Virus record (IMG/VR): IMGVR_UViG_3300025154_000140
Span: 1-49,663 of that record
Reading direction: 5' to 3' (one strand)
DNA length: 49,663 nucleotides
Origin: a virus
Both the position numbers and the translations under genes were made by a program. Shown in pieces: positions 5,627-31,254 of this stretch (positions are counted from its first letter, which is position 1; every line of letters starts with the position of its first letter). Below the pieces are notes generated by a model. That model worked only from the letters and a program-made list of their open reading frames with translations, ran no database searches and was not told the origin of the DNA.

Positions 5627-5780
5627 GAAAGGTCTTTTATCCGCTCCGGAAAGCTTTGAAATTATTTTGAGATGTCCGGAATGCGGAAAGCTTCTTGGTC
5701 GAGGAAAACTCGTTGAAGGCAGTCATGTTGAACTTTACTGCCGGAGATGTAAAAAAGAAATTAAAATTCGCGCTATATAA
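5610..5780 (+). CDS. com: Com-like zinc-ribbon protein
   Basis: A short protein with two CxxC knuckles, RCPECGKLLGRG and YCRRCKKEIKI, in the spacing of the Com family named after the phage Mu translational activator of mom. It overlaps the end of the scaffold gene. ATG codons at 5601 and 5610 lie inside that gene without a good ribosome site, so the start is uncertain and translation is probably coupled to scaffold termination. It would bind RNA or DNA through one zinc ion. No mom-like modification gene is seen nearby, so its partner is unknown. Confidence 0.65.
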   Translation: MITKNKKGLLSAPESFEIILRCPECGKLLGRGKLVEGSHVELYCRRCKKEIKIRAI

Positions 5781-5887
5781 ATCGTTCATGGTGAACGGTT
5801 GATATAAAAAGCCAGAGCGCCTCCGAGTGCCAGTGCAAACAACAAACGCCGAACAAAAAAACGGCGTGGCACAAAAGGAGGTTGCAA

Positions 5888-6901
5888 ATGGCAACAAACA
5901 CGTATGGGGATATATCCCCGAAGGTTGCAGGGTCTTCCGCAAAGCGCTTGCTTAAGCGCGGACAGAACTTGTTCGTGACCGAAAGATTCGGTCATTTCGA
6001 TCCGCAGGGTAAAAACAAAACCCTGACTCGCAAATGGAGACGGTACAACTCACTGGCTCCAGCAACTACACCGCTTGCCGAAGGAGTAACTCCGGACGGT
6101 TCCGCAATCAGCTATACGGACTATACCGTAACGCTCGCTCAGTATGGCGACTGGGTTCAGATCACTGATGTTATAAAAGACACTCATGACGATCCCGTTC
6201 TGCAGGAAATGATGGACGTTTGCGGTGAACAGCTGGCTGATACAGTCGAACTTCTCCGCATTGCAGTGCTGAAAGCTGGCACAAACGTTTTCTATGCTGG
6301 TGGCGTTGCCAGCCGTGCGGACGTAAACAGCGCTCCAACTCGTGGGGATTTCAGCAAAATCGTTCGTTCGCTTAAGCGCAACAAGGCGCGCACAATAAGC
6401 AGAATTATCAAGGCAAGTCCCAATATTGCCACCGAGCCAGTAGGCGCGGCATATTTTGCGATGGGGCATACTGATTTGGAACCCGATATCAACAAGATGT
6501 CCGGATTCGTTCCCGTTGCAAAATACGCCAACAGCGACAAGGCGCTTCCGGGAGAAGTAGGGAAGATTGACAGTGTCCGAATCATCCTTACTTCGCTTTT
6601 CTCGCCGTGGGCGGCAGTCGGCGTATCTGGAACCACATTCCTTTCAGGAGGCGTAGAAGTTACCGAGGCTGCTCAGTGTGATGTCTATCCCCTGATAATC
6701 GTTGCCAAGGACGCTTACGGGATAGTTCCTCTCCAGGGGGAAAACGCCGTCAAGCCGATGGTGAAAAATCCTGAACCGGTCAAAGGCGACCCGTTGGCAC
6801 AGACGGGATTTGTTGCCTGGAAAATATACCAGGCAACGGTAATCCTAAACCAGCTCTGGATTGCAAGACTGGAATGCGCGGCAACCGCCGATCCTGAATA
6901 A
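5888..6901 (+). CDS. Major capsid protein, N4-gp56 family
   Basis: The 337-residue protein carries the hallmarks of the N4-gp56 capsid family: an N-terminal TNTYGDISP, a central segment with TPLAEGVTPDG followed by YTDYTVTLAQYGDWVQITD, DDPVLQEMMDVCGEQLADT, and AGTNVFYAGG. It forms the icosahedral HK97-fold shell. The ATG at 5888 has an AAAGGAGG site six bases upstream and is preferred over a TTG two codons earlier. A strong terminator follows directly, as expected for the most highly expressed head gene. Family assignment is by motif recognition. Confidence 0.92.
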   Translation: MATNTYGDISPKVAGSSAKRLLKRGQNLFVTERFGHFDPQGKNKTLTRKWRRYNSLAPATTPLAEGVTPDGSAISYTDYTVTLAQYGDWVQITDVIKDTHDDPVLQEMMDVCGEQLADTVELLRIAVLKAGTNVFYAGGVASRADVNSAPTRGDFSKIVRSLKRNKARTISRIIKASPNIATEPVGAAYFAMGHTDLEPDINKMSGFVPVAKYANSDKALPGEVGKIDSVRIILTSLFSPWAAVGVSGTTFLSGGVEVTEAAQCDVYPLIIVAKDAYGIVPLQGENAVKPMVKNPEPVKGDPLAQTGFVAWKIYQATVILNQLWIARLECAATADPE

Positions 6902-8378: not shown

Positions 8379-9631
8379 TGAGCGAAATCACAATCACCCT
8401 GAACACAACAACAAAGACCGGCCGGGCTTCGGGAATAGCTGTACTACTCGATACGGTCGAGCTTACGCTTTCAGAAATAGGGGATAATGAAGCGGCAAGT
8501 ATTTATGCTTTTGTGCAGTTTCGCGGAGTAACATACGCCGGTTGCCAGTTTGCGGCGGTTGATGGAGATTTGACAAAAGCAATCGGAACGATGTCGCTGA
8601 ATACTGCTACTCTCAAAGCTGCGTTCTCCAATATTCATCCGGACGGCGTGAGGTGTTTTCCGTTGACAGTTATCAACACAGCAAGCGGAAACTCCACTGT
8701 TTGCGTTTGTGATTTCAATATTCGAAATAATCCGGCGACACCGCCGAGTACTGCGGACGAAATAGAAGAAACTTGGCTCCATACTCATGGCAATCTTGCA
8801 ATTCTAAGTGAAATTCTGGATGCCGGAAGCGGAAATATAATTACAGCTGAAGAACGAGCAAATCTTGCCGCTCTCTTGACGCATGGACATACAGTAAGTG
8901 CGATTTCAGACTTTGATGATGAGGTTTCAAACAATACTGACGTGGCCGCAAATACAGATACAAGACATGGACATGTCAATTTTTCACTGCTAGAAACTTA
9001 TGAGCAAACGGAGGCTAACCTGGCCGACGCGGTTACAAAAAAACACGAACACGTTAATTTTTCATTGTTGGAGACATACGAACAGACAGAAGCCAATCTT
9101 GCAGATGCAGTTTCTAAAAAACATGAACACACAAATTCAGCTCCATTGGATAAGATTACAGAAGATGCAGTAACCGGACTGCCGCTTTATGATGGCAATT
9201 CAATCGGAGGGACTGGTAATGTTCGCGCCCCGGTCGAATTGCCATCAGGTAATATTCCGATCTTTGACGATGAAACCGGGGAGCTGCTTGCGGATTCGGG
9301 ATTCGGTAAGGTAGCTCAAGTAACAATTACAGATGACACCACGACAAGCATAAGCCTCGGACTTGTCGCCACATACAGGGCATTCAAGCTTGAATACGTA
9401 CTTGACGATGGAACAAATTATCGCAAAGGAGTGCTTGATATTATTCACGATGGAACAAGCGCAACTCTTGCGCCTGGAGCTTACGTGGACTCCGGCACAA
9501 TAACTGGTATAAGTTTTGATGCGGATATTGATTCCGGAAATGTACGCTTACTCGCTATTGCTGCAAGTGTTGGGAGTAATTTTAAAATGGTTTATCGAAT
9601 CGTCAATGTTTTACCAGTATCAACATCATAA
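8378..9631 (+). CDS. Tail fibre / baseplate-like protein with a tandem repeat
   Basis: The 417-residue protein has a beta-rich N-terminal domain (about 1-125) with a TITLNTTTKTGRASG start, a linker with histidine-punctuated repeats (about 135-255, THGN, THGH, RHGH, KHEH), two near-identical 26-residue units from about residue 199, and a C-terminal beta domain (TITDDTTTSISLGLVATY). Such His-punctuated repeats are common in trimeric phage fibres. The start overlaps the previous stop in TGATG, two bases into a TTGATG. It probably forms part of the adsorption apparatus. The receptor is unknown. Confidence 0.65.
   Translation: MSEITITLNTTTKTGRASGIAVLLDTVELTLSEIGDNEAASIYAFVQFRGVTYAGCQFAAVDGDLTKAIGTMSLNTATLKAAFSNIHPDGVRCFPLTVINTASGNSTVCVCDFNIRNNPATPPSTADEIEETWLHTHGNLAILSEILDAGSGNIITAEERANLAALLTHGHTVSAISDFDDEVSNNTDVAANTDTRHGHVNFSLLETYEQTEANLADAVTKKHEHVNFSLLETYEQTEANLADAVSKKHEHTNSAPLDKITEDAVTGLPLYDGNSIGGTGNVRAPVELPSGNIPIFDDETGELLADSGFGKVAQVTITDDTTTSISLGLVATYRAFKLEYVLDDGTNYRKGVLDIIHDGTSATLAPGAYVDSGTITGISFDADIDSGNVRLLAIAASVGSNFKMVYRIVNVLPVSTS
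8972..9127 (+). repeat. Tandem 26-residue protein repeat with diverged codons
   Basis: Units at 8972-9049 and 9050-9127 encode the same 26 residues (starting HVNFSLLETYEQTEANLADA) except one Thr/Ser change. Codon by codon, only 7 of 26 are identical, 18 differ synonymously and 1 changes the residue. Confidence 0.9.
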
Positions 9632-9642
9632 AAGAGGAAAAT

Positions 9643-10497
9643 ATGAAGAATAGATTTTTAGCAGGAATTTTCATTGGACTTACAATTCTCGGTATAGCCG
9701 CAACCGTCCCTCTTGTATACGAAAATCTTGACATTAAAACCGTCCTGAGAGTCGATACAATCAGCAAATATCTGAATGCCAGTGGCGTCTATGTCGAGAG
9801 TGTTCAGATGCTCAACAATACAATTCGCGCAAGTGCGTTTTATAAGGGCGATATTGAAATTGGATCAGGCGCTGGCTCCGGCGACATGACTGCGGCAGTC
9901 TATGACCCTACGAGCAAGGCCGCAGATGCGTTCGATATGGATAACATGTCTGAGGGTTCAACTAATCTGATTTTGACAGGTACAGAAAGGACGAATATAT
10001 CCACAGCGACAAGCCATGCTTCCAGCACATCAAATCCTCATTCGGTTACGGCCTCGCAAGCGGGGGCTATTACTTCGCCAATATATATAAATATGCTGAC
10101 GAAGGTTCCCGATGCAATCGGCGCTGGTACGTGGGATGTCGTCATACAAACTACTCACTTCTATAATGGCTCCTTCCGAAATACGCTAGCGGCGGCAGAC
10201 GGCGACAATTTTACAGTCAATTTTTCGTGTCCGGCAGGGACATATAGGTTTGATATTAACATCATAAAAAACACGAATGCGGCTAAACTCGACATGTTTG
10301 TTGATGCCGCAAAAATCCTTGATGCTGGCGATTATTATGCAGCCGTAGCATCGGCGATAGAAATTACGTCAATTACCGGCGTAGCGTTGACAGCAGGATC
10401 TCACACGTTAAAATTCGCGATAAATGGCAAAAACGCTTCCTCCAGTGCCTACATCATAAATATGAGCGCAATCCAAATTACAAGAACGGGGGATTAA
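9643..10497 (+). CDS. Tail fibre-like protein with N-terminal hydrophobic segment
   Basis: The 284-residue protein starts with a basic N-terminus and a hydrophobic helix (about residues 5-25, FLAGIFIGLTILGIAATV), which could be a signal anchor. It then has a phage-fibre linker with a DMTAAVYDPTSKAADAFDMDN segment and an NPHSVTASQAGA motif typical of tail fibres. The C-terminal half (about 150-284) is beta-rich and ends near SAIQITRTGD, resembling trimeric receptor-binding heads. A hydrophobic N-terminus is unusual for a fibre. It is linked to the flanking genes by short spacers. Confidence 0.6.
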   Translation: MKNRFLAGIFIGLTILGIAATVPLVYENLDIKTVLRVDTISKYLNASGVYVESVQMLNNTIRASAFYKGDIEIGSGAGSGDMTAAVYDPTSKAADAFDMDNMSEGSTNLILTGTERTNISTATSHASSTSNPHSVTASQAGAITSPIYINMLTKVPDAIGAGTWDVVIQTTHFYNGSFRNTLAAADGDNFTVNFSCPAGTYRFDINIIKNTNAAKLDMFVDAAKILDAGDYYAAVASAIEITSITGVALTAGSHTLKFAINGKNASSSAYIINMSAIQITRTGD

Positions 10498-10499
10498 TT

Positions 10500-10769
10500 A
10501 TGAAAAAAACAGCGTATCAGTCTGACGGTAACGGCGGCGTTATAGCGGTTGAAATTGAGGTTGATGAAAAAACTTTCATATCAAAACTTGTTTTGACAGA
10601 TCGTCTAATTGCGCTCGGCAAACTCTCTGATGCTTTGAACGCTCTCAACTCTGATACTGTTAAGAAAGCTCGGTGGGACGCGTCTACGGAAATAGCCATC
10701 GACGATGCGGACGTTATCGCAGTTTTGACCGCGATAGGAATAACAAATACATCAACGATTTTATATTGA
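10500..10769 (+). CDS. Small hypothetical tail-associated protein
   Basis: An 89-residue soluble protein following the fibre gene by two bases. It contains a predicted helix around LTDRLIALGKLSDALNALNS and a short C-terminal helix (DADVIAVLTAIGI). Its size and place are like small proteins that accompany fibre genes, but no family is recognised. The ribosome site GGGGG lies inside the end of the fibre gene. Confidence 0.5.
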   Translation: MKKTAYQSDGNGGVIAVEIEVDEKTFISKLVLTDRLIALGKLSDALNALNSDTVKKARWDASTEIAIDDADVIAVLTAIGITNTSTILY

Positions 10770-10779
10770 AGAGCAAGAA

Positions 10780-10995
10780 ATGAAAAACACAAGGATTATC
10801 GCAGGAGCGTTGATTGTCATAGTGATTGCAATGCTCCTTGCCGGGTGCATGAACAAGCATATCGCGCAATGGAAGTACGATACTCAGACGATGCGAATAG
10901 CCGAGGCCTATTACCTTGACGATACGTCAATCAAAATATGGTCTGAAGGGACGGGCAAAACAATTGAGATAAGCCCTACAGTCGTAGGGATGTAA
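10780..10995 (+). CDS. Small lipoprotein
   Basis: A 71-residue protein with a basic start, a hydrophobic helix and a lipobox LLAGC with Cys23, so it would be lipidated by Lgt and cut by Lsp. About 48 residues remain after cleavage, with a beta-like SIKIWSEGTGKTIEIS tail. It precedes a second lipoprotein and the caspase-nuclease-holin cassette, so an outer-membrane spanin role or a superinfection role is possible. No partner inner-membrane spanin is recognised. Confidence 0.6.
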   Translation: MKNTRIIAGALIVIVIAMLLAGCMNKHIAQWKYDTQTMRIAEAYYLDDTSIKIWSEGTGKTIEISPTVVGM

Positions 10996-11020
10996 TAAAC
11001 AAAAAACAGAAAGGATTGGA

Positions 11021-11386
11021 ATGAGACTCGCAATGATCGTAATCGCAATGTTCGGCCTCCTGATAGCCTCCGGCTGTCTGACTACCGAACAGCAGGCACA
11101 GGTAACTTCGACAATCGAATCAGTCGTTGACGCGGCTCTGCCCGTGGCGGCTCAGCTCGGCACAGTGGCGGCACAGGCGTATGTGTCTCAGCAGGTATCC
11201 GAGGGGAATCTTACAACCGAACAGGCTCAGGCTATTAATTCTGCCATTGCCTCGGTCGCTTCGGGCATTACAGCGGCGGTTGTCGGAACCGCGACTGCTG
11301 AAACCGCGAAGGATGTAAAATCCCCGTGGCTTTCAACGTCGGTCAGGAACCGCGTTGTTAATGACGCGCTTTCCCGATTGAAATAA
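11021..11386 (+). CDS. Lipoprotein with Ala-rich helical mature domain
   Basis: The 121-residue protein has a signal peptide ending in a lipobox LIASGC (Cys19). The mature part is Ala/Gln/Thr-rich (TTEQQAQVTSTIESVVDAAL, then ALPVAAQLGTVAAQAYVSQQ), predicted helical, with a basic end (VRNRVVNDALSRLK). Ribosome site GAAAGGA is present. A terminator hairpin follows directly. Position before the holin region suggests envelope disruption (spanin-like) or another cell-envelope role. The sequence itself does not decide. Confidence 0.6.
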   Translation: MRLAMIVIAMFGLLIASGCLTTEQQAQVTSTIESVVDAALPVAAQLGTVAAQAYVSQQVSEGNLTTEQAQAINSAIASVASGITAAVVGTATAETAKDVKSPWLSTSVRNRVVNDALSRLK

Positions 11387-11393
11387 TATTCAT

Positions 11394-11422
11394 GCCCCGG
11401 CTCGGGTGGAGTCGGGGCTTTA
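11394..11422 (+). terminator. Intrinsic terminator before the caspase gene
   Basis: GCCCCGGCTC pairs with GAGTCGGGGC (one G-T pair) around a GGGTG loop at 11394-11418 and is followed by TTTAT. The short T-run makes it a moderate terminator. It separates the lipoprotein genes from the caspase-nuclease-holin genes. Confidence 0.7.
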
Positions 11423-11467
11423 TCGAGAGGGTACAATGGTGAACTCCCGATAAGGAAAGGATGAATT

Positions 11468-12232
11468 ATGAAAAGAATATTGCTGCTTGCCGGGACAAAT
11501 TATACTGGAGAATCTCATAAACTTCGTGGATGTGTACAAGACACTTATAAGCTTTCTTCGAAGTTCGGGAAAATAGGTATTGACGATAGACAGATACTCC
11601 GTGAAGATGATATGAGTAAAAAGAACTGGCTTGATTTGCTTCTCAAAGCCGTTCTTGAAGCACAGCCCGGAGATGAAATATATCACGGGCATTCACACCA
11701 CGGCACATGGTATCCTGACCAGTCCGAAGAAGACGGGCGCGGTGAAGCATGGGTTCCGGATGACTGGAACTATGATACCCAATCACTTATTACAGATGAT
11801 GAAATGGATGAAGTTCTCGCACACCTTCACCCGGAAGCATTTTTTATAGACTGGCCGGATTGCTGTCATGCGTCAGGATCACTTCGTTCAATTGCGTTTG
11901 GAAACGAAATTCCGCGTTTTGTGGTTAACCCCGAACTCCCGGAAGATACGGGAATTGTTCGAATCACAAAGACCGTTCTTCCTCTTTATCGCCACAATGT
12001 CGTACAATTGGCGGCTTGCCGCTCCGATCAGACCAGCGCGGACGCTTTTATCGAAGGGGAATGGTGTGGAGCATTCACGCACTATGCGCTTAAGGCATGG
12101 GACGACGCAGGAAATATTTCGTTCGGCAATCTGATAGACAGAGCCGGAAAACTCCTTTCCAGATTCGGATACAGCCAATGCCCGGAATATGTGGGTTCAG
12201 AGTCAAACATGGAAAGGTTTATGTTGTCATGA
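11468..12232 (+). CDS. Caspase-like cysteine protease (metacaspase / peptidase C14)
   Basis: The 254-residue protein has the caspase p20 layout. It begins ILLLAGTNYTGESHKLRGCVQD, as metacaspases do. The catalytic His region is GDEIYHGHSHHGTW (H78 before G79). An acidic linker with DDEMDEVLAHL leads to the Cys region IDWPDCCHASGS, with C133 (or C132) as nucleophile. One extra Ala splits the usual CHSG. No signal peptide and no fused effector domain are seen, so it is a stand-alone cytoplasmic protease, probably cutting after Arg or Lys. Its stop overlaps the start of an EndoG-like nuclease (ATGA), so both are made together. Ribosome site AAGGAAAGG precedes the start. Confidence 0.85.
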   Translation: MKRILLLAGTNYTGESHKLRGCVQDTYKLSSKFGKIGIDDRQILREDDMSKKNWLDLLLKAVLEAQPGDEIYHGHSHHGTWYPDQSEEDGRGEAWVPDDWNYDTQSLITDDEMDEVLAHLHPEAFFIDWPDCCHASGSLRSIAFGNEIPRFVVNPELPEDTGIVRITKTVLPLYRHNVVQLAACRSDQTSADAFIEGEWCGAFTHYALKAWDDAGNISFGNLIDRAGKLLSRFGYSQCPEYVGSESNMERFMLS

Positions 12233-13377
12233 TAACACGCGGAGACATTGAAGAGCGCAAGCCGTTTCTCCCGGAAATGACCGGGGCGAAAGTAACGAGC
12301 CATGAATTTTACGATGTAGCATTCGACTCTTTTCACAAAGTTCCATTCTGGACTCTTCACCGCGTTACGCCTGGACGAACAATGAAGAAATTTCATAGAG
12401 ATGGAACACCAATCGAAATAGGGCGCGGCTGTGGAAACTTCTGTGCCGATCCGATGATTGTCGAATCACCAGCAGGGAGCGCGTACGCTCTTTCAGGTTA
12501 CGATACCGGACACCTCGTCCCGGCAGAGGCCATGCAATTTGATAAACGGGCGCTTGCTGACAGCTTTTACACCAGCAATGCGTGTCCACAGACGGACGAG
12601 CTTAATTGTGGTCCGTGGCGCACTCTGGAGCATAACGCATTCAAGTCTGCAATGAAGGGTAGGGAGCTTGTCGTCATAGCCGGGGCAATCTTCACGGAAG
12701 GAAAGAGATATTTATCGTCCGGAGTTGCTATCCCTGATGAGTTTTTTAAAGTCGTTGTCTGCCAGAAAGAGGGAATATACGATTGCTGGATTATGACCAA
12801 CTCAGAAAAGCCGATTGTCAAGTTCGTTACGCTGTCGGATATCGAATATCGTGCCGGACTGGTTTTCCCGTTCCGGGATTTCAGGCACGTCCCGGACTTT
12901 ATGACCGCCGCGTCTTCACGTGAACTCCGCGCATTGAACGGAATCAAAATCGAGAATCTTCTCAATGGCGAATACACCATGCTTGAGGATTATATGTGGA
13001 ATCCGCACGATGCAGAATATCCCGATGCAAGAATAAAAATACCGAAAGGATTCACTACCGACTTCGGCAGCGTACCGGGAATCGTTCAGAATGTTTTTCC
13101 GCCTATAGGCACGTTCCGCGATCCGGATTTCTTGGGGCATGACTTGCTGTACGGAACGGAATATTTCGAATGGGAAGGGATTGCGTACAAGATAATCAAA
13201 GAACCTTCTAAAAATCGTGCCGAATGCGACTGGCGATTGCTTGAGTCTCTCAAGGCTGACGGCGATTCATGGTTCTCAAGAAATACTATCTGGAGTGCGG
13301 TGAAAGTCGGCGGCGGCTTCGTGTGGGCAAAACATAATCCGGAATCGATCGAGGCAAACAGGAAACTTTTAAAATAA
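12229..13377 (+). CDS. EndoG-like DNA/RNA non-specific nuclease fused to a DUF1353 domain
   Basis: The 382-residue protein starts in an ATGA overlap with the caspase gene. Residues about 25-230 match the DNA/RNA non-specific endonuclease family (EndoG/Serratia nuclease): FYDVAFDSFHKVP, then DTGH (D92-H95, usually DRGH, with general-base His95), FYTSNACPQ (N117) and NCGPWRTLE (metal-ligand region N126-E134). Residues about 245-350 resemble DUF1353, with IPKGFTTDFGS, the FLGHDLLYGT segment and a conserved DWRLLESL helix. DUF1353 genes are common next to phage lysis or tail genes and have no agreed function. There is no signal peptide. The fusion is unusual. Confidence 0.82.
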   Translation: MITRGDIEERKPFLPEMTGAKVTSHEFYDVAFDSFHKVPFWTLHRVTPGRTMKKFHRDGTPIEIGRGCGNFCADPMIVESPAGSAYALSGYDTGHLVPAEAMQFDKRALADSFYTSNACPQTDELNCGPWRTLEHNAFKSAMKGRELVVIAGAIFTEGKRYLSSGVAIPDEFFKVVVCQKEGIYDCWIMTNSEKPIVKFVTLSDIEYRAGLVFPFRDFRHVPDFMTAASSRELRALNGIKIENLLNGEYTMLEDYMWNPHDAEYPDARIKIPKGFTTDFGSVPGIVQNVFPPIGTFRDPDFLGHDLLYGTEYFEWEGIAYKIIKEPSKNRAECDWRLLESLKADGDSWFSRNTIWSAVKVGGGFVWAKHNPESIEANRKLLK

Positions 13378-13391
13378 AGGGAGTCGGGGAA

Positions 13392-13691
13392 GTGAAGGAC
13401 ATATTTCAAAAAGGAGTTGAATTGCTTCCAGTTGTATCGCTGGCGGTATTCGGAGGACTTACGAGGACACTGGTCGGAAAGAACCTCAAAGAGCGTTACA
13501 ACTGGCGCATTGGCATAACCGAAATGGTGATTGCCGGCTTCGCCGGAGTCGTCCTTCATCTGCTGATGTCAGAATACAATATTTCCGAGGGATATAAATC
13601 TGCGGCAATCGCCCTGTCCGGGTACTCTGCCCGTGAAGTTTTGGGACTACTGCGGACGGGACTGCTTAAAAAGATTTCGGGAGGAAAGTAG
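13392..13691 (+). CDS. Holin-like membrane protein
   Basis: A 99-residue protein starting at GTG, with two or three hydrophobic segments (about residues 10-25 VVSLAVFGGLTRTL, 40-58 EMVIAGFAGVVLHLL, 68-85 AAIALSGYSAREVLGLL) and a basic C-terminus. Size, topology and a position directly after the caspase-nuclease pair fit a phage holin that forms holes in the inner membrane. The AGGGAG site is 8 bases before GTG. The stop overlaps the GTG of the next gene. The exact holin family is not certain. Confidence 0.7.
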   Translation: MKDIFQKGVELLPVVSLAVFGGLTRTLVGKNLKERYNWRIGITEMVIAGFAGVVLHLLMSEYNISEGYKSAAIALSGYSAREVLGLLRTGLLKKISGGK

Positions 13692-13945
13692 TGAAACTGG
13701 TACTGGTAGAGTGGGCTGACTCAAAAAGAATGTCTGACGGATGGATATATAATAATGAAGTGAAGCCGTCTGTCTGTGTAAATAAATCTGTTGGATGGAT
13801 TCTTGAATCTACAAAAGACATTCTTGTCATAGCTCCTCACAGGGGAATAAACGAAGAGACAAATTACGGTGCAATATCAATTCCGAAATGTGCCATAAAA
13901 AGAATTTTTAAGGTGGAAAAGAAGAAGGTCAAAAAGGTAAAATGA
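13691..13945 (+). CDS. Small hypothetical phage protein with CxSVGW-type core
   Basis: An 84-residue protein starting at GTG in a TAGTG overlap, with a GGAGGAAA ribosome site. The core VEWADSKRMSDGWIY, then VNKSVGWILES, ILVIAPHRG and ISIPKCAIKRI, has the pattern of a small family common in phage structural and lysis regions, in which a GW pair is followed by an APH strand and an IP-x-AI end. The C-terminus is very basic (KKKVKKVK). Function is unknown. Confidence 0.6.
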   Translation: MKLVLVEWADSKRMSDGWIYNNEVKPSVCVNKSVGWILESTKDILVIAPHRGINEETNYGAISIPKCAIKRIFKVEKKKVKKVK

Positions 13946-14598
13946 AGCGTTCTGGAACAGTTTATTTTCTTGGAAAGGGCAAAGAATCCTGCGTTTCGTT
14001 CAGTCCGCATGCGCGGGTATGGGCATGTAATGATTGGTATGTTTCCTATCCGAGGGTAAAGCCGGAAAGAGTTTATCAGATTCATACAGAAGAAAAAGAA
14101 TGGAGGCTCCCGGCCGGACGCTATGTAAGATGGAAAAAGAATTGTGAAAAAATCAAAGCTCAAATTGTTGTAAGAACTGACGTAGGAGTAAAAAACCAAC
14201 GCTTCTTTGATAGCGCAAGCGCTCGTAAAGAAATGGGGGAAGATTTTTTTGGAGGGTCATTCAGCTTCATGTTCTATGACGCAATAAAAGAAGGTGTTGC
14301 AAAAATTATTCTCAAGGGTTTTTTGCTTCTTCAACACGGCGAATATGAATGGCAGACACCTGCAATACTGATGAATATCAAAATTGCAAGAGAACACGGA
14401 ATAGACGTTCAATGGACATGGGAAAATGACCGTAAGTCTCAACTTGTTTCGGCGGTTAAAATGTTTGGCAAAGTACGTGAGGTCAAAATGAACTATGGAG
14501 ACGAGGACGAATGTGTCAAGAAGATAGATGTCGTTAAGTCCTGTGGACTTGAAAACCTTAAATCAATAACGGAATTGAATAATGAAACTTCAAATTGA
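13942..14598 (+). CDS. Hypothetical phage protein with Rossmann-like N-terminus
   Basis: A 218-residue protein starting in an ATGA overlap. The N-terminal TVYFLGKGKESCVSFSPHARVWACNDW and a later RVYQIHTEEKEW resemble phage proteins in which a GxGxS turn is followed by a GLND-like segment and an F-x-x-H element, possibly nucleotide or sugar-nucleotide binding. The middle has FGGSFSFMFYDAIKEGVAKIILKG, typical of an alpha/beta fold. The C-terminal 17 bases overlap the next gene. No catalytic set can be named. Confidence 0.55.
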   Translation: MKRSGTVYFLGKGKESCVSFSPHARVWACNDWYVSYPRVKPERVYQIHTEEKEWRLPAGRYVRWKKNCEKIKAQIVVRTDVGVKNQRFFDSASARKEMGEDFFGGSFSFMFYDAIKEGVAKIILKGFLLLQHGEYEWQTPAILMNIKIAREHGIDVQWTWENDRKSQLVSAVKMFGKVREVKMNYGDEDECVKKIDVVKSCGLENLKSITELNNETSN

Positions 14599-17029
14599 AA
14601 AATACGGCGGACTTATTCCAAGAACGGAAGCAAAACTTCTTCCCGATACCGCGGCGCAAACAGCGTTGAACTGTAATCTGACTGCCGGAAATCTCAGGGT
14701 ATTCAAACAAACGAGCCTTGAAAGAACAATTGCAGCCGGAGTAAAAACAATCTACCGGAGAGGTTCAATAGGTCGTCCGGGCGCGGTTGTCAGTGGCGCG
14801 GGATATGCAATCTCTGGCGGCGATTATCTTGCAAAAACAAACGCATTTGACGGCGGAACTACGACACAATGGGCTTCTTCTCAAACGACAACAGCGATTG
14901 ACAATACCGCATATATCGGTCAGAATTTCGGGGCTGGTAACAGCAAGAAAATATGCAAAATGCGCTTACGGCTGGCAACGAGCGGCAACGCTCCGACAAC
15001 CGCAATGATTCAGCGTTCGTTGAATGGTTCTACATGGACGGATGTATCCGAAATGGCGATTGATCCGACAAATACGGGCAGCTATCAGGAATTTACATTC
15101 ACGTCCACAACGGCGGCTCAGTACTGGCGGCTCCTGGCTACGTCCGACTGCCAGAATTCAGGTCGCTGGTATGTCGCGGAACTTCAAATGGTGGATTGGG
15201 TAGACGGTGAAGACGCTGCTGAATGGCTTGATTTTGTCACGCTCTGCAATATAGCTAAAGGATGTATCAATGCGGATGAATATAATCGCATTTTGTGGAC
15301 GGGAGATGCTGACGGAGAACTCAAAGTCCGAGGCGATTTCGGGACAGCCGGAGCCGCCGAGACAAGAGATGCTACAATCGCCAAGCCTACTGCGCCGATT
15401 ACCGCCACAGTAACTCCATTCTGGGCGGCAGACAAATCGTCATGGGCCATTATCGCTAATTTTGGACTTCAACCGGGGATTGATTGTCCTATTGATCCAG
15501 TCACCGGAATAACTGTTTCCGAAGACGGCGAGACGCTTACAATCAGAGCGCGTTATCCAGGGAGTTATACCGCGGCTTCAGGAGGCATATGGATTACAGA
15601 TATCCGCGATATTGCAATTAATCTTGCCGGAATTGGGATTATGTCACCTGTAAGTAATTCGATTATTGGCGTTGCACAAGAAATTCGTTATAAAAATGAA
15701 GCGTATTGTACCTTGGCGGGAGGGGGCGTTGCAAACGAAAATGAAGATACCACTTGGATACCGAGAGATTTCGGCTTTACTCCCGCTTATTACCATGCAA
15801 AAATGAATCCATTCGACTTGGTAATCACGCTTTCGCTTGTCTATGCCGTTTCACTTTCATCTCGTTACTACTGTCAGCGGTATGTAACTGATATTGTGGA
15901 AGAGGGCGATCCGGGACAATCTATTTCCACGATGGTTGAAGCGAGGACAGGCGATACCGTTACACTCGCGCTTGGGGCCGCGCCCGGCGGAAATGTGGAG
16001 AATCGAAGAATTTACCGCAGCGCAGGAAGCATCCTTAATAATGGATTTTTATTTCTTGACGAAATAGCCGCGGCTACTGCAAATTATAGCGACACCAAGC
16101 AAGATACTGAACTTGCAGAGTCTATGCCAGCTTATGGCGATCCGCCGAATGAAATGTATGGCCTTATAAGAATGCCCGGCGGAATATTGGCTGCGGCTGG
16201 CTCAAATAAGCATGATATATATTTTAGTGAACCCTTTATTCCTTGCGCTTGGCCTGTGGAATATATGCAGACGGTTGAATATGAGATTGTTGGCTTCGGC
16301 GCTTACGGCAATACCCTTATCGTCTGCACAAATGGAAAGCCTGAGCTGATTATAGGAGATCATCCGGAACTGTTCTGCGTCCGGCAGATACCAGTCAATC
16401 AGGCTTGTGTTTCAGCGCAGGGTATATGTTCATCCAGAGGAGCGGTATTTTATCCTTCACCAGACGGCCTTGTAATGGTATCAAACGGAACCGCGCAACT
16501 CGTTACTGAGAAATTTTTCACGCGTGAGCAATGGCAGGAACTTCAGCCGGACACAATGATCGCAGAGGTTCACGATAACAAGGTATTCATGTTCACCGAT
16601 GTCGGGACATGGGTTTACGATCCTGCCGAAGAAGCGCTTGTTACCACGGACGAAGAGGCTTCCGCTCTCTTCTATGAAATAGAGGACGACTCGCTTTATC
16701 TTGCTCAAACAACTTCATGTGTCAAATGGGAAGGCGGAACAGAAAATAAAACCTCAATATGGAAAAGTAAGAAATTCTCTCTTAACCGGCCGGCAAACTT
16801 CTCATGCGCGAAGATAATCGCCGCGGATTACTCGATAACAACAGGGAATGTAATCCTTCGACTGTATACGAATGATACGCTCGTATACACTGGTACAATT
16901 CCTGCCGCGCAAATAAATCTTTCGTTCCGGCTTCCCGTTATGCGCAAGGAGCGTGACTGGGAAATAGAAGTCGAGACAACAGTCAATATCGATAAACTCA
17001 TTCTTACTCAGAGCATGGGGGAATTTTAA
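14582..17029 (+). CDS. Tail nozzle / stabilisation-like protein with discoidin-like insert
   Basis: At 815 residues, the N-terminal 50 (YGGLIPRTEAKLLPDTAAQ) and the C-terminal half (PGGILAAAGSNKHDIYFSEP, GFGAYGNTLIVCTNGKPELI, GAVFYPSPDGLVMVSNG) match podovirus tail proteins that form a beta-propeller nozzle below the adaptor. Residues about 80-205 look like an inserted F5/8 type C (discoidin) domain: AKTNAFDGGTTTQWAS, QNFG, RSLNGSTWTDV and YWRLLATSD. That domain binds carbohydrate in other proteins, so it may help surface recognition. The start overlaps the previous gene by 17 bases. Confidence 0.72.
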   Translation: MKLQIEKYGGLIPRTEAKLLPDTAAQTALNCNLTAGNLRVFKQTSLERTIAAGVKTIYRRGSIGRPGAVVSGAGYAISGGDYLAKTNAFDGGTTTQWASSQTTTAIDNTAYIGQNFGAGNSKKICKMRLRLATSGNAPTTAMIQRSLNGSTWTDVSEMAIDPTNTGSYQEFTFTSTTAAQYWRLLATSDCQNSGRWYVAELQMVDWVDGEDAAEWLDFVTLCNIAKGCINADEYNRILWTGDADGELKVRGDFGTAGAAETRDATIAKPTAPITATVTPFWAADKSSWAIIANFGLQPGIDCPIDPVTGITVSEDGETLTIRARYPGSYTAASGGIWITDIRDIAINLAGIGIMSPVSNSIIGVAQEIRYKNEAYCTLAGGGVANENEDTTWIPRDFGFTPAYYHAKMNPFDLVITLSLVYAVSLSSRYYCQRYVTDIVEEGDPGQSISTMVEARTGDTVTLALGAAPGGNVENRRIYRSAGSILNNGFLFLDEIAAATANYSDTKQDTELAESMPAYGDPPNEMYGLIRMPGGILAAAGSNKHDIYFSEPFIPCAWPVEYMQTVEYEIVGFGAYGNTLIVCTNGKPELIIGDHPELFCVRQIPVNQACVSAQGICSSRGAVFYPSPDGLVMVSNGTAQLVTEKFFTREQWQELQPDTMIAEVHDNKVFMFTDVGTWVYDPAEEALVTTDEEASALFYEIEDDSLYLAQTTSCVKWEGGTENKTSIWKSKKFSLNRPANFSCAKIIAADYSITTGNVILRLYTNDTLVYTGTIPAAQINLSFRLPVMRKERDWEIEVETTVNIDKLILTQSMGEF

Positions 17030-18231
17030 TGGCACTGAAAGACCTATCAGTCAAAACCATGAAGATTTTTAACATGGACGATGCCTATGAGAATCAGCAG
17101 GTAACAAACGGTGCTTCCGATTCTATCCGGATACTTAACGCCAAGCTCGAAATAGATTCGAGCCTTCCGGTGATTTTTAATCAAATGGATACTGATGAGA
17201 ATCAGCAGGTAACCAATAAACTGGTAGACGCTGTAAAGGAGCTGGAGAAATCATTTGCAACAGCCAGCGGACTCAATGTAAACTTTTCAACGAAAGCTTA
17301 TCCCATTATCAACAAAAACGACAATTACGAGAATATGGACGTTACAAATAGGCTTGTTGCGGTTATTGATGAGATTTCTGTGACTATTGAAAAGTATTTG
17401 GATGATATAGCAAGCAGACGCTCCGGCGAAGGGAAAGCAGTTGAAGCAGAAGACGAGCCGGGTTCTTCATCAATGTCCGACACTGATGCGCTATATGAAT
17501 TTGGTGGATCGTCCGAGCATTGGGATATTGTAGGTCGTTGCATGTGTTCAGATCCGGAATGCCATTATGATTGCTCTTCTGGCGACATTATGGTTATTGC
17601 GTCTGGAACTTATTCAACTGCCTGTGATGAATCGGGAAACCATTTAATTAAACTCGCAGGGCCTTTTGAGTCATACGAGGCCGCGTATACTAATCTCTAC
17701 GCTAATTATGCCGCATACGAAGAGATGCTTCTTGGAGACTGCGAATCACCTTGTGATGGACTCCGCATTCAAGGTTCATTAACAAAAAACTGCTCCGGAG
17801 AATGCTATTTTGATATATGTATCCCAGATGTTACTTCAGATTCTTATATCAGTACAACTATACTCATGCCTGGTACTCACTACGATAATTGCGGCAATCC
17901 ATTTAGTGTTTGGATGCACGTGGGGCACACTCCCGGAACCTCGCTTAGAATAAATACCAATGGGTTATATGGAACCGGCGGTAGTGTTGAAAATTGCTGT
18001 TGGGGCTATGCTGATGGCAGCGCACTTCAAAGCAATCCGGACGGCGAATTTGTTCCTTTGGCATATCCAGCTGGAAGTGTTGGCAGGAATTGGGCGCGTT
18101 TTGGAAGTTTTTATAGATGGAGCGGGGGAACGTATGAATACGCAATTGCCGAAGATGGAAATTGCAAGCAAGTAGATGAAAGCCCTGAAGGATCGTTTCC
18201 GTGGTCGGCAAGTTATAGATTTAGCGAATAA
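17029..18231 (+). CDS. Cys-rich putative tail or receptor-binding protein with three N-terminal repeats
   Basis: The 400-residue protein starts one base inside the preceding TAA (TAATG). Residues 10-125 contain three units built on a YENQQVTN-like core followed by an amphipathic helix (DAYENQQVTN, TDENQQVTN, DNYENMDVTN), which suggests a coiled-coil or trimeric stem. After an acidic linker the C-terminal 240 residues hold 14 Cys (CMCSDPEC, GDCESPC, ENCC) with Gly/Ser/Tyr-rich strands, typical of an extracellular disulphide-bonded head. Position after the nozzle gene supports a tail tip or receptor-binding function. No family is recognised. Confidence 0.6.
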   Translation: MALKDLSVKTMKIFNMDDAYENQQVTNGASDSIRILNAKLEIDSSLPVIFNQMDTDENQQVTNKLVDAVKELEKSFATASGLNVNFSTKAYPIINKNDNYENMDVTNRLVAVIDEISVTIEKYLDDIASRRSGEGKAVEAEDEPGSSSMSDTDALYEFGGSSEHWDIVGRCMCSDPECHYDCSSGDIMVIASGTYSTACDESGNHLIKLAGPFESYEAAYTNLYANYAAYEEMLLGDCESPCDGLRIQGSLTKNCSGECYFDICIPDVTSDSYISTTILMPGTHYDNCGNPFSVWMHVGHTPGTSLRINTNGLYGTGGSVENCCWGYADGSALQSNPDGEFVPLAYPAGSVGRNWARFGSFYRWSGGTYEYAIAEDGNCKQVDESPEGSFPWSASYRFSE

Positions 18232-18239
18232 GGAGAATC

Positions 18240-19172
18240 ATGATTTTTTTAAAACAGATTTTGGATTTTAAGGACGAGATTCTGAGCTATTGCGGCAACA
18301 CAACAATGGATTCGGCAAGAGCAATTCATGTAGGAATACCAGAGGGCAATGTTCTACTTGCTACCTTAATTGAATACTGCAAGGAACAGAAAAGCGTTCC
18401 GCCATTCATGGATAAGGTTCCGGATGAGCTTTATGATAGTATTGGAAGCAGCTTGATGGCGGCGCGTCCGCTGGATGTCGTTCTCGAAGAAGAAAAAGAA
18501 ATCGTTCTTAAAATCGAACCTCAACTTATCGCAAGCTATAACAAAATGAATGCGCCCGGCTGTGTAGGCTGTAATAAAAGAAAACACGCTTTGGCGATAA
18601 AACAATTTCTTCTTCAAAAAGAATTATCGGGGCTTTCTGAGGAGTTGGTTTTTAAGCTGAATTTTGCTCGAAGAACTAAGGCAGAGGCAAAGACAATGCC
18701 GATTAAGATCACGAGACGCGAAATAATTATCAATACTTTTGACTGTATCAATTGCACACTTAAACACGTGTCTAATGCAATCGTTCAAATGGGTGAACTG
18801 CGCAGGGGTTTTTGGGGCACTAATCACGAAACATTTTGTCGGGCAAATATAGATGAAGCATCTCAACAGATTGACGGATATTCAAATGAGATTTCAATGC
18901 AATTACGCGATATAAGAAAATCTGTTTTTGAGGAGAAATTTCTCATTGAAATATCAGATATTGAATCATTGCAATCCATATATTGGGCGGTTGTTCAATT
19001 AGGAATAGACTTGTTGGGACATCCGCCAGCCAGTGAGCGAAACGCCAAGCAACTTGAATTGTTGGGAAAAGGGGGAAATACCGAACAAAAGAGAAGCCCA
19101 TACCATGCGAAAATCATAGAGAATGAAAGCGGGTTCAGCGGGAGCGGGGAAGGGCGGAAAAGTTTTGCTTAA
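18240..19172 (+). CDS. Hypothetical phage protein with CxxC and CxxCxxKH motifs
   Basis: The 310-residue protein has two metal-site-like Cys pairs, GCVGCNKRKH (about residue 105) and FDCINCTLKHVSNA (about 165). The second is of the C-x-x-C-x-x-KH type seen in a family common in gut phage genomes. The rest is mainly helical with a Gly/Ser/Lys-rich C-terminus. A strong AAGGAG site precedes the ATG. It sits between the Cys-rich tail protein and the ejection proteins. Function is not known. Zinc binding is inferred. Confidence 0.55.
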   Translation: MIFLKQILDFKDEILSYCGNTTMDSARAIHVGIPEGNVLLATLIEYCKEQKSVPPFMDKVPDELYDSIGSSLMAARPLDVVLEEEKEIVLKIEPQLIASYNKMNAPGCVGCNKRKHALAIKQFLLQKELSGLSEELVFKLNFARRTKAEAKTMPIKITRREIIINTFDCINCTLKHVSNAIVQMGELRRGFWGTNHETFCRANIDEASQQIDGYSNEISMQLRDIRKSVFEEKFLIEISDIESLQSIYWAVVQLGIDLLGHPPASERNAKQLELLGKGGNTEQKRSPYHAKIIENESGFSGSGEGRKSFA

Positions 19173-21103: not shown

Positions 21104-24100
21104 ATGAGTTTAAGGCACGTTCCTGTAGATATTTCAGACTTTAATCCGGATGAATTTCTTAAATCAACCGCGTCAAATTCTTCTCAGTCTGCCATGACTG
21201 GAACAATAGATATTTCAGATTTTGATCCTGATTCATTCTTGGGAACAAAAAAAGAAGTATCCCAAGAAGAAATAAGGGCTGCATTTCCCGAGCCGTCCCG
21301 TGTCCGCAGTCCGGAAGAACGAGATTACAGGGAGTTTTTGACACTTCACGGAGTGAACCCTGCAACCGGAGGATACAACGTTGAAACGAAGCTTCCTGAA
21401 ACAATGGCAAATAAGGCCGTCAAGTCGTTTGAATCCGGCACGTTGCAAGCTGGGGCTTCGCTGGCGGCAGTTCCGGGATTCGTGGGGGGAATAGACCGCG
21501 CACTTAGAGCCAGCGCTCTCGAAAAAAGAAAAGCTTTTGGCGATCCGATTGTTGATATAATTCCACAGGAATATAGGGACAGCCTTGAAAAGCGGACAGA
21601 TGGTTCATTCAAGGGCAAGGGATTCTACGGCGAACTCAAGAGGCCGGACGGCGGAGTATCAACGGAACTCAGTTTCGGGACTTCGGACGTTGAACCCGGC
21701 AAGGAAGTTGAAATTCCCGCTCTTGTTCCTGGACTCAGTCAGGAGCAGAAAGATTATCTTCTTTCCACAAAGCCGGAAGAGTCCAGCAAGAAAAATCCAC
21801 AGATGTGGGATTCGATTGTCGGACAGGCTGTCAACTTTGCCAAAGAGCGCAAAGCCAAAGGGCTTCCGTATTTCGCAAGCAATACCGAACAGCCGATTGA
21901 TAAACAGGACTGGATAGATGTTCTTGACGGAACCGCAAAGTTCATGAAAGACAAGGCCGCAAAAAGAATGCAGACCGTTTCCGGGGGACTTGATATTATC
22001 GATACCTTCAAGCAGAAAGGAACCGCGGCAGGGGTTGAACAAATCCTTTACGGGGTTGTCAACCAGGTTCCCAATCTTGCGACACAGATAGCGGCTTTAT
22101 CTCTCACTGGCGGTACGGGTTCACTGGCGTATATGGGGGTTACCTCCGCTGCGGACAAGCGCATTGATATCAAGGATAATCCCAATATGTCGGAGTGGGG
22201 GAAGATAGCGAACGAACTTGGAACTGGCGGTTTTGAAATTTTTGGTGAACGGATCGGCGGACTCCCGATACTGAAAAGAATCATGGGAGATGCGCCGAAG
22301 AAAGCCATTAAAAAGGGTGTAACTAATTTTCTGAAAACCATAGGCTTCGACATGTTTCAGGAAGGAGGTTCAGAAGTTGTAACGCAAATCGGGCAGAACC
22401 TTACGGATATGCTTACCGGAAATACGGACAAGCCGCTTTCCGAAATGACTATAAGGGAAAAAGCTCAAAAACTCGGACAAGGCGCTGTGGACGCCGGGAT
22501 TATCGGTGGCGTAATGGGCGGCGGTATGGGTACAGTCGAGTATGCCGGCAAGCCAAAAATATCAACGGACGAAAGAACAGACCTCCTGAACGATTCGAAA
22601 ACTTCGACAAGTTCAAATGAGCTTGAGAATGTACCTGAATCTCAGGCAATTAATTTCCCGGCATCGGGCGGCATTGATTTTGACTCAATGGGTAAAGACG
22701 AATTGTCCGCATATATTACGGATAAAACCGGGCAAGCGCCGTCTTCGCTTGCAAGGATTGAAGACCTCGCGGAAGACGCAAAAGCAATTCAGAATGCCGA
22801 AGCTATCGAGAATGCGAGTAATGCACAAGCCGCAAGTGAAGCTCAGATGATAGAGCCTCAGCAAGAAATTCAGCAGGAACAAATTTCAGAAGAAGAGCTG
22901 CCAGTTCCAGAAAGCGCGGCGCCGGAAGTAAATTCAGCAATGCAAGCCGGTGTAAAACCCGAAATTCTTCCAGCCGACAATGCAATGGCGCAACCACTAT
23001 TAGGAATTGCCGAAGGCCCCGGCGATATTCCTGTTACATCTTTGAATATCGAAGAAGCTCTGCGGATCATGAAAGAATCAGAAGTTGATTATACTCTTGA
23101 TGCTCCGCAAAGATTGCCAAGTCAGAATATTGAAACAACCGCTAAACTTGATTTGCTTGTTCCTGCACAGGAAAAGGGAAATGTCGCGTTTACACCGACT
23201 CCTGAATTGATTCCCAATATAGCCGAAGAGCAGAAACAGTCCGATGACAACAAATTACCAGAAGCTGACAATCGCCCTGTGAATATCGAAAGCGTCAAAA
23301 CGCCTTCCGGCTGGACAAAAAACTTGTTGAAAGCGCAAGTATATGCCCGGCGTCTGGGACTGCCGGTTCGTCTCAATGATAAAACTCTTGGGCTTGATCA
23401 GCTTGTCAAGAATATAAAGGAGGTTTTGAAAGAGCAAAAAAGGTCAACTTCCCCAAAGGCAGAAACCTTTGATCAGTGGCAAGCGCAGTACGAAAAAGAA
23501 CTCAGAGAAAAGTTCAATAACGAGGAAGATGTGAAAAAGAATCTTGACGCTGTCGAATGGGCGCGTCATAGATGGGGTCTCAAAGGTATAGCATCAAGGG
23601 CAAATTTACTTAAGAAAACAGTGCTGGCAAATGGTAAAAAAACAAAAAACAAAGCTCCAGAACTAATGACTCCTGAAGAAAGATATCATAGCGAATGGGA
23701 ATCTCCTGATTTTCCAGGAAAAGCCAACAAAGCTACTAAACCAAATTATGAAAAAATTAAATTAGAAACTGGTTTAGATTTTGATGTTGTAGGATATCAG
23801 CTTATTCCTAAACAACCAAACAGGTTTCAAAAAAGGCAAATTTTTACATCCAGTGATGTCCAAAATATCCGAGCCGCATTACGAGAACAAGGACATAATA
23901 GTATAGTTAATGATTATTATATTTCCGATGCCGATTCAAAAATAAAAGTAGGCGATGGCCAGATAATAAAATTAGATGGAGGATTGGGAAAAGATTACAG
24001 TCTTCCAACTGCTCCTATTCATTTTAGAGAAATTAAAGATGCGATAGCAAAGCATAATCCTGTTTCTGCTCTTGCTATAGAATCCTTTGAAATAAAACTT

Positions 24101-30315: not shown

Positions 30316-30333
30316 GGGATATGATTATATCCC
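30316..30333. terminator. Convergent hairpin, possible bidirectional terminator
   Basis: GGGATAT pairs with ATATCCC around a GATT loop in the 17 bases between the plus-strand block and the end of the minus-strand gene, whose TAA (30327-30325) lies inside it. T-runs are weak on both sides, so termination may be partial. Confidence 0.5.
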
Positions 30334-31254
30334 TCCTCTTTCTGTCCATACACGTTCACGCCAAGCAAATTTAGAATCTTCAACCATTTCAGATATAAAC
30401 CCTGCTTTGGTTTTCTTTAGTTTTTCTCTGGCAACCTTGAACTCCCAAGCGGTTTTTTCCATTCCTTTTAACTTATCTGACAGTTCGGCGGTCTGTTGTT
30501 GTAACTGTTGGATTTTAATATTGAGACCTTTTATTATAGCCCAAGCTCCAGTATTTCTTGTCTGTGAAGTTGTCGTAGCATGAGCATCTATATCTCCAGT
30601 AATTTTAGTAGTGGTAGTTGTGGTTTTTTCATTTAGTTTCATTTGTTCGAAAACCGTAGTCCGCTTTTGTTCTAATTGCGAAATCTCTTGAAGTTTTGAA
30701 TCTATCAATGTTTTGCCATGTTGAATAACATCTTCTATTCTGCGAACTTCACAATTGGGGATAATAAACTCACTAGAAAATAAATTATCATCACCCCCTA
30801 ATCTAAGATATTTATCACCTTGAACCACAATAAGAGATAAATCACTTGAAAGGAAAAGCTCACCAGTCATAAAAATATTCAACATGTCTTGTTTTTGTTT
30901 TATATTTTTTAAATGGTTTTGTTTTCGCTCAAGGTCTAATTTTTTCTCGTATTCTGCAATTTTTTCTTTATTCGCTTGCTCTTTTTTTGCAAGTTGTTGC
31001 TGTGCATCAAGCACCTCTTTTTGGTGAGCTAGTTCTTTTTTAAACGAATATCCCAATTGTTTTTGCGAATCCTCAGACATTTCAATGAACTTCAAGAAGG
31101 CAACGCCTTCGGCATGCTGAATATCAACACCGGACGGAGTTTTATTCAGTACTGTTACATCTTTGAATTCGCGGCCATCAAGCATTTTTATATCGACAGC
31201 TGAGAGCTGGCAAGTTATTCCAATGGCAAGCAGTAGCAAGAAAAGCTTTTTCAT
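30325..31254 (-). CDS. Secreted coiled-coil protein, possible lysogenic cargo gene
   Basis: The 309-residue protein has a clear signal peptide (KKLFLLLLAIGITCQLSA, cut before VDIK). A short domain follows (VDIKMLDGREFKDVTVLNKT, then DIQHAEGVAFLKFIE), of a type I associate with secreted proteins of Verrucomicrobiota and relatives. The rest is charged coiled coil (about 75-120 and 185-300) with a Thr-rich break (EKTTTTTTKI). It is the last gene of the minus-strand block, separated from the gene before it by 74 bases, with a GGGGGA ribosome site. It looks host-derived (a moron). Its role is unknown. Confidence 0.65.
   Translation of the reverse strand: MKKLFLLLLAIGITCQLSAVDIKMLDGREFKDVTVLNKTPSGVDIQHAEGVAFLKFIEMSEDSQKQLGYSFKKELAHQKEVLDAQQQLAKKEQANKEKIAEYEKKLDLERKQNHLKNIKQKQDMLNIFMTGELFLSSDLSLIVVQGDKYLRLGGDDNLFSSEFIIPNCEVRRIEDVIQHGKTLIDSKLQEISQLEQKRTTVFEQMKLNEKTTTTTTKITGDIDAHATTTSQTRNTGAWAIIKGLNIKIQQLQQQTAELSDKLKGMEKTAWEFKVAREKLKKTKAGFISEMVEDSKFAWRERVWTERGGI

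Follow-up and report, generated by a model that had tools for sequence, protein, structure and literature searches.

A metacaspase-type protease gene coupled to a nuclease–DUF1353 fusion gene and followed by a holin gene: a candidate late lysis cassette in a prophage of a Lentisphaeria-like host

The 49,663-nucleotide stretch of the IMG/VR record IMGVR_UViG_3300025154_000140 analyzed here in full (the window) carries, at 11468-13691, three consecutive genes that encode a metacaspase-type cysteine protease, a fusion of a non-specific endonuclease with a DUF1353 domain, and a holin. We regard them as a real and unusual module, and we favor a role in lysis over the rival explanations: the three genes probably serve a temperate phage as a late cassette for lysis and cell demolition, one that works without an endolysin. 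This reading draws on the domains and catalytic residues of the proteins, the overlap of the first two genes, their position among virion genes, the recurrence of DUF1353 ahead of a membrane-protein open reading frame (ORF) in related genomes, and the neighborhoods in which caspase and phospholipase-type genes are found together. The module consists of the following features.

11468-12232, plus strand: caspase/metacaspase-type cysteine protease, 254 aa (P0001), from Pfam, PDB, PADLOC, residues, and tree
12229-13377, plus strand: fusion protein, 382 aa (P0002), Endonuclease_NS plus linker plus DUF1353, from Pfam, EndoG/EXOG structures, and matches to a PHROG nuclease and phrog_1158
12280-12867, plus strand: Endonuclease_NS domain, residues 18-213, with H95, N117, N126, and E134, from Pfam and PDB
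12868-13023, plus strand: linker, residues 214-265, with R216, R219, R231, R234, and K240 as possible protease sites
13024-13302, plus strand: DUF1353 domain, residues 266-358, of the TtaP-type phospholipase A2 family, with H304, D305, and D334, from Pfam PF07087
13392-13691, plus strand: holin, LydA/holin superfamily III, 99 aa, GTG start, two hydrophobic segments, from Pfam PF16083 and PHROG

Results

A complete metacaspase-type domain

The first gene encodes a full caspase domain. Pfam Peptidase_C14 (PF00656) matches at 6e-11, with residues 4-243 lying on positions 4-225 of the 233-position profile; the best PDB matches are metacaspases, among them 4f6o (Metacaspase-1, which we take to be yeast Yca1) at 3.6e-16, and the PADLOC "caspase" model matches at 4e-6. 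By alignment the catalytic pair is H78 in HSHHG and C133 in DCCHA, and both residues are invariant in the five-row alignment of the clade described below, which places the protein in family C14 as a metacaspase-type enzyme. D25 and D131 align with the aspartates of the GCxxD and DxC motifs, which in metacaspases form an acidic S1 pocket and confer Arg/Lys specificity. The protein resembles Type I metacaspases and bacterial orthocaspases (4f6o) in its match to both parts of the domain, its His/Cys pair, and the aspartates of GCxxD and DxC, but unlike them it has no prodomain. HSHHG and DCCHA occur in P0001 and in the viral loci L028 and L077, whereas the other viral rows have the commoner SGHG and D-x-CHS.

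A predicted nuclease joined to a predicted phospholipase

The caspase gene shares the nucleotides ATGA (12229-12232) with the gene of the fusion protein. The N-terminal part of that protein matches Pfam Endonuclease_NS at 8.1e-30 over residues 18-213, and its nearest solved structures are EndoG and EXOG (best 9.3e-12). Members of this family (EndoG/NucA) carry a D-R-G-H-like motif, a Mg-binding Asn, and a following Glu. Here the motif is DTGH, containing H95, and N126 and E134 are in place, from which we predict a nuclease; D92, H95, N117, N126, and E134 are identical in the nuclease of L077. The first-pass annotation of this DNA, made from the letters alone, had already named the caspase fold with H78 and C133, the non-specific endonuclease with DTGH, N117, N126, and E134, the ATGA overlap, and the holin-like gene behind them, and all four are upheld here. 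It also gave the nuclease protein two domains, which is correct, but left the second unnamed. Matches to the nuclease half are also found elsewhere: at least several large phages (about 145-350 kb) carry them, and a phylum-wide search with P0002 matched 129 of 387 genomes, mostly in the nuclease half alone.

The second domain, residues 266-358, matches Pfam DUF1353 (PF07087) at 3.8e-10. In the accessible part of the source on this family (PMC11525133), TtaP, the founding member and a single DUF1353 domain of 125 aa, is a proven phospholipase A2 that loses activity on mutation of the dyad Asp; its authors expect other DUF1353 members to be active in this way too and report from CDART that the domain is also joined with endonuclease, lysozyme, and protease domains. 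The window domain belongs to the same Pfam family and keeps the His/Asp dyad and the Asp after the His, H304, D305, and D334 aligning with the DUF1353 proteins of L136 and L137 and corresponding to the TtaP residues given in that part of the source. We therefore read the DUF1353 part of the fusion as a predicted phospholipase A2. In contrast to TtaP as described there, it is fused to a nuclease and borne by a prophage, and relative to L136 and L137 it has ~15 extra residues between the dyad residues. Pfam finds no sensor or NTPase domain in the caspase or the fusion, and PADLOC, run on the three proteins, matches the caspase only.

A holin but no recognized endolysin

The third gene encodes a LydA-type holin, as indicated by matches to Pfam LydA (PF16083, 8.7e-14) and a PHROG holin family (1.4e-11) and by two hydrophobic segments. 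With E-values of this size, the family matches of the three proteins are beyond chance. The caspase, fusion, and holin genes lie on the same strand as the flanking virion genes, within the late block. No endolysin family came up when 52 window ORFs were scanned with Pfam and 29 with PHROG; the ORFs at 61-375, 5637-5942, and 10517-10792 and some short ORFs past the window end fell outside these scans. Within that scope, the window departs from the canonical holin–endolysin–spanin cassette in having no recognized endolysin, and the expectation of the first-pass annotation, a virion/lysis block with this module where an endolysin would stand, holds.

DUF1353 recurs in this genomic slot

DUF1353 occurs at 62 places in 52 of 195 Lentisphaeria-class genomes. 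In 59 of the 62 the open frame is at most 212 aa, the exceptions being the window (427), G008 (315), and G059 (357); in G008 the match (1.4e-21) lies inside a 311-aa ORF (L155:1003-1938, minus strand) with, by eye, a lipoprotein-like start. We fetched 30 DUF1353 loci, one per genome (L150-L179), and scored the 24 with the motif, dropping L152, L153, L155, L159, L166, and L173. A small membrane-protein ORF follows DUF1353 on the same strand in 20 of the 24, compared with 30 of 145 control ORFs of the same loci (Fisher p 5e-9), the controls including spurious frames. In one locus from the host's own family (L142), the order is a lipoprotein-like gene, DUF1353, a 92-aa protein whose start is hydrophobic by eye, and then a relative of the 218-aa protein encoded downstream of the window's holin, which marks this as the same genomic slot; its 9.5 kb contain no caspase or nuclease match. 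Because DUF1353 recurs ahead of a small membrane-protein ORF and L142 has neither caspase nor nuclease, DUF1353 and a holin-like protein are probably the usual content of the slot, to which the caspase and nuclease have been added.

The host genome itself (G000) has two more DUF1353 genes on other contigs, L137 (C92) and L150 (C97), the former adjoining a lipoprotein-like gene and lying near an integrase-like ORF (by eye). More broadly, the DUF1353 proteins of Lentisphaeria-class genomes are candidates for the lysis enzymes of prophages in that class.

Related viral caspases and their partners

A search of IMG/VR with two short patterns gave 48 viral caspase loci (L028-L075); metacaspase-type genes are therefore not rare in viral contigs. 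We used 42 of these, L030 and L040 being repeats and L053, L058, L065, and L067 having given no caspase ORF. The caspase tree (43 rows) left out ORFs of <200 or >400 aa as well as L072 and L075, and three metacaspases found, by eye, among chromosomal-looking genes (L003, L144, and L145) served in the tree only. P0001, L028, and L077 group at 100/98, and L029 and then L136 join them at 99/96 each; the root is a midpoint root only, and L136 is a long branch of unsure placement.

Within this five-member clade a nuclease is present at two caspases, those of the window and L077, and a partner of lipid-hydrolase type is more frequent: DUF1353 in the window and L136, patatin in L028, and a putative one in L077. 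The caspase genes of the window and L136 each overlap a DUF1353-containing gene; in L136, an 8.2-kb contig of possible phage origin from the same order as the host, the overlap is again ATGA, with an alternative caspase start 6 nt on. In L028 the caspase gene is followed by a lipoprotein-like gene and then by patatin (5.8e-15). The L077 caspase, 41% identical to that of the window, has a 1-nt overlap (TGATG) with the gene of an Endonuclease_NS protein, so that the coupling of protease and nuclease genes recurs in one other phage contig. In L029 the caspase gene lies behind genes for a one-segment membrane protein and a lipoprotein-like protein and ahead of one for a tail-collar protein. In the mutually related loci L062 and L066, outside the clade, the caspase gene lies downstream of a DUF1353 gene, at a gap of 15 nt in L066 and with a short ORF of ~60 codons between the two in L062 (by eye). 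A clade profile, built with the window and L136 rows themselves, gave four matches in 197 genomes of the class: the window, L136, the chromosomal-looking metacaspase L003, and one 1092-aa frame.

The L077 nuclease is fused to a C-terminal domain homologous to stand-alone proteins of L011 and L083 that share a GAGP...HD pattern. This YNGAGP...HD family stands beside tail-type genes, alone at L011:8787-9266 and L083:5977-6381 and fused to the nuclease at L077:1699-2215; the L011 and L077 members have no Pfam match. As a phospholipase, the L077 domain is kept as putative, with no Pfam match and an unusable model of the homologous L011 domain.

The neighbors of the viral caspases comprise 161 ORFs, 140 of them on the caspase strand, of which 126 were scanned; the other 14 comprise 13 long ORFs and a single one from L056. 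Among the best 25 of 57 Pfam families and the best 25 of 175 PHROGs, Amidase_2 occurs in 2 of the 126 proteins and an M15-type peptidase in 1, neighbors that may point to lysis blocks. By a hydrophobicity rule applied without a control, a number of the 48 loci also have small membrane proteins or lipoprotein-like ones beside the caspase.

The pair in the phage lineage

The only close relative of the phage that we found is L011, whose tail protein is 74% identical. It carries a homologue of the window's 815-aa protein (below) with another gene set nearby, among them a 159-aa protein with the GAGP...HD pattern. Seven distant portal relatives (L021-L027) have none of the module's genes in the stretches examined. 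Because both L011 and these seven lack the genes in the stretches examined, the caspase–nuclease pair is not conserved in the phage lineage, and the conserved pairing in related phages that the first-pass annotation had proposed as a check is not borne out, the less so with a nuclease at only two of the five clade caspases. Viral contig scans with P0001 or P0002 alone gave no relative, a search of viral contigs with the nuclease alignment recovered only L077's own contig, and a DUF1353 alignment search gave none, nor did a second alignment on genome contigs. A nuclease match listed among phages, MT838156 (L080), was dropped; by eye an mnmE-like gene adjoins the nuclease, and the sequence looks like a bacterial chromosome.

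We also reject the suggested parallel with the eukaryotic pathway in which caspases and EndoG act together in cell death, because only two fold families are common to the two settings, with no common pathway, and the nuclease is not a constant partner of these caspases.

Setting of the module

The contig around the window is 107,840 bp long (genome G000). A perfect 50-bp repeat, the 3' part of a tRNA-His gene, occurs at 315-364 and at 53857-53906 (window coordinates, beyond the window end). Between the copies are encoded an integrase, head-tail adaptor/portal, major head protein, virion proteins, terminase, primase-helicase, and methyltransferases; beyond the right copy lie host-like genes. 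One of these resembles, by eye, a methionyl-tRNA synthetase gene, and its top six matches among named genomes come from Victivallaceae and other Lentisphaeria assemblies (64-67% identity). We therefore take the window to belong to a prophage, apparently intact, of a Lentisphaeria-like host. Further features of the window are as follows.

315-364, no strand: left attachment repeat of the prophage, 50 bp, from repeat search and tRNA-His match
10780-10995, plus strand: small lipoprotein-like gene, 71 aa, N-terminal hydrophobic segment ending LLAGC (by eye)
11021-11386, plus strand: lipoprotein-like gene, 121 aa, N-terminal hydrophobic segment ending IASGC (by eye)
11394-11418, plus strand: hairpin between the 121-aa lipoprotein-like gene and the caspase gene, 10 bp, -22.1 kcal/mol, weak T tail (TTTAT)
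13942-14598, plus strand: 218-aa protein of unassigned function, with a relative in L142 (29% identity, 1e-14)

The 71-aa gene has only weak PHROG matches to Rz-spanins (best 0.061), and a spanin-like role is possible; the 121-aa gene matches PHROG holin family 526 at 1.9e-4 over 51 residues. As for the terminator that the first-pass annotation had placed upstream of the module, the hairpin exists, but only TTTAT follows it and it is not among the terminator scan output. An Rfam scan of 9000-18500 gave no match. Elsewhere in the window, 14582-17029 encodes the 815-aa protein, a relative of an internal virion protein family (PHROG 1.3e-114) with an F5/8 type C domain at residues 80-194; 21104-30307 encodes a 3067-aa polyvalent protein with LPD5 and LPD1 domains; and 30325-31254 (minus strand), between the 3067-aa gene and the terminase genes, encodes a 309-aa protein with a signal-peptide-like start (by eye) and no Pfam or PHROG match, possibly a lysogenic-conversion gene.

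Discussion

How might such a cassette work? The genes would be made late in infection, and the holin would set the timing and open the membrane. The DUF1353 domain, in the slot where an endolysin is expected, would hydrolyze membrane phospholipids, and the nuclease domain fused to it would cut host nucleic acid. The co-translated caspase could cut the fusion in its Arg-containing linker, freeing or activating the two domains, or could digest host proteins. These activities and their timing, the cleavage of the fusion and its activation by the caspase, and the supposition that no other protein serves as endolysin are what we infer from gene content and order. In a bolder form of this scheme, which we consider doubtful, lysis is run by the caspase itself: after the holin fires, the linker cut would release active nuclease and phospholipase, and the cell would burst without an endolysin in a phage counterpart of pyroptosis.

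Several observations weigh against a lysis role. The clade member L029 has no DUF1353, patatin, or nuclease partner, and among the best 25 of 57 Pfam families of the neighbors scanned DUF1353 or patatin is near only 3 of the 42 viral caspase loci (L028, L062, and L066). In the close relative L011, tblastn over 22,448 of 56,973 contig bases finds no counterpart of the caspase, nuclease, DUF1353 domain, or holin. Of the 24 scored DUF1353 loci, 11 come from one genus and are thus not independent. By eye, four of the 20 positive frames (L157, L163, L167, and L174) are open to doubt, although the remaining 16 of 24 would still be above the controls (Fisher p 1e-5). The DUF1353 part matches PHROG 1158, a family labeled "tail assembly chaperone," and the AlphaFold models are unusable (mean predicted local distance difference test score 33.7 for the fusion and 53.2 for the YNGAGP...HD domain of L011). 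Finally, an endolysin could hide in an unrecognized protein, and a nuclease acting in the cytoplasm would put phage DNA at risk, too, before it is packaged.

Three other explanations have to be set beside lysis. Caspases, nucleases, and phospholipases are effector types of bacterial immunity, and the prophage could carry them as an abortive-infection module with which the lysogen kills its cell when another phage infects. The PADLOC match is in keeping with this, as is the absence of the genes from the L011 stretch examined, which is expected of cargo, and the accessible part of PMC9612521 describes bacterial caspase-like proteases that adjoin and activate membrane-killing gasdermins in phage defense. 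However, no sensor domain rises above the Pfam cut-off in P0001 (caspase only) or P0002 (nuclease and DUF1353 only), the genes share strand and block with virion genes and have a holin next to them, and the 7 promoter-like sites in 10700-14600 are no more than chance would give (shuffled sequence has a mean of 5.2). We consider this explanation unlikely.

Alternatively, the particle might carry these proteins alongside its internal virion proteins, to act on the host at injection, or the protease might serve in virion maturation; the 815-aa internal virion protein relative, 0.9 kb downstream of the holin, and the tail label of the DUF1353 PHROG would fit. Yet the next gene is a holin, a small membrane-protein ORF follows DUF1353 in most scored loci, and L011 has the 815-aa homologue without these genes nearby, which leaves this account quite improbable. 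Equally improbable, to our mind, is host takeover or competition, in which the nuclease would degrade the host chromosome or rival phage DNA for nucleotides, the caspase would remove host proteins, and DUF1353 would be incidental. That large phages carry matches to the nuclease half speaks for it; the position beside the holin, and the fact that DUF1353 rather than the nuclease recurs in the slot of related genomes, speak against it.

The closest known system to the late lysis cassette proposed here is the putative patatin–holin cassette of phage WO. As far as the accessible part of its description goes (PMC9203015), phage WO has no endolysin–holin–spanin system, and the cassette proposed in its place comprises a patatin-like phospholipase A2, a holin-like protein, and, in some copies, an endonuclease. 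The two are alike in having phospholipase-type and holin-like genes by the tail module, no canonical endolysin, and an endonuclease in some variants. They differ in that the window has DUF1353 by Pfam and not patatin, which is present in the related locus L028, and in that the WO endonuclease is a separate gene of the PLD family; the WO cassette also has an ankyrin protein, that part of the text mentions no caspase, and the host of WO lives inside eukaryotic cells. Closest in logic are the bacterial gasdermin–caspase systems, in which, according to the part of PMC9612521 cited above, cleavage by a neighboring caspase-like protease unleashes a membrane-attacking effector. There, as here, a caspase-like protease gene adjoins the gene of a (here predicted) membrane-attacking effector, but gasdermins form pores and defend bacteria, whereas this cassette is phage-encoded. 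No gasdermin is among the Pfam matches of the caspase or the fusion, the partner showing only Endonuclease_NS and DUF1353. No title or abstract found by our literature search describes such a cassette; most subscription journals and preprints were outside its scope, so this is weak evidence of novelty.

If the lysis reading is correct, there is a phage group that ends infection by protease, nuclease, and phospholipase instead of the textbook endolysin, and caspases would, besides their part in host immunity, serve bacterial viruses. The reading gives the DUF1353 family, whose PHROG now bears a tail assembly label, a testable function in lysis, and the cassette would offer a three-gene setting in which caspase-activated membrane attack may be studied.

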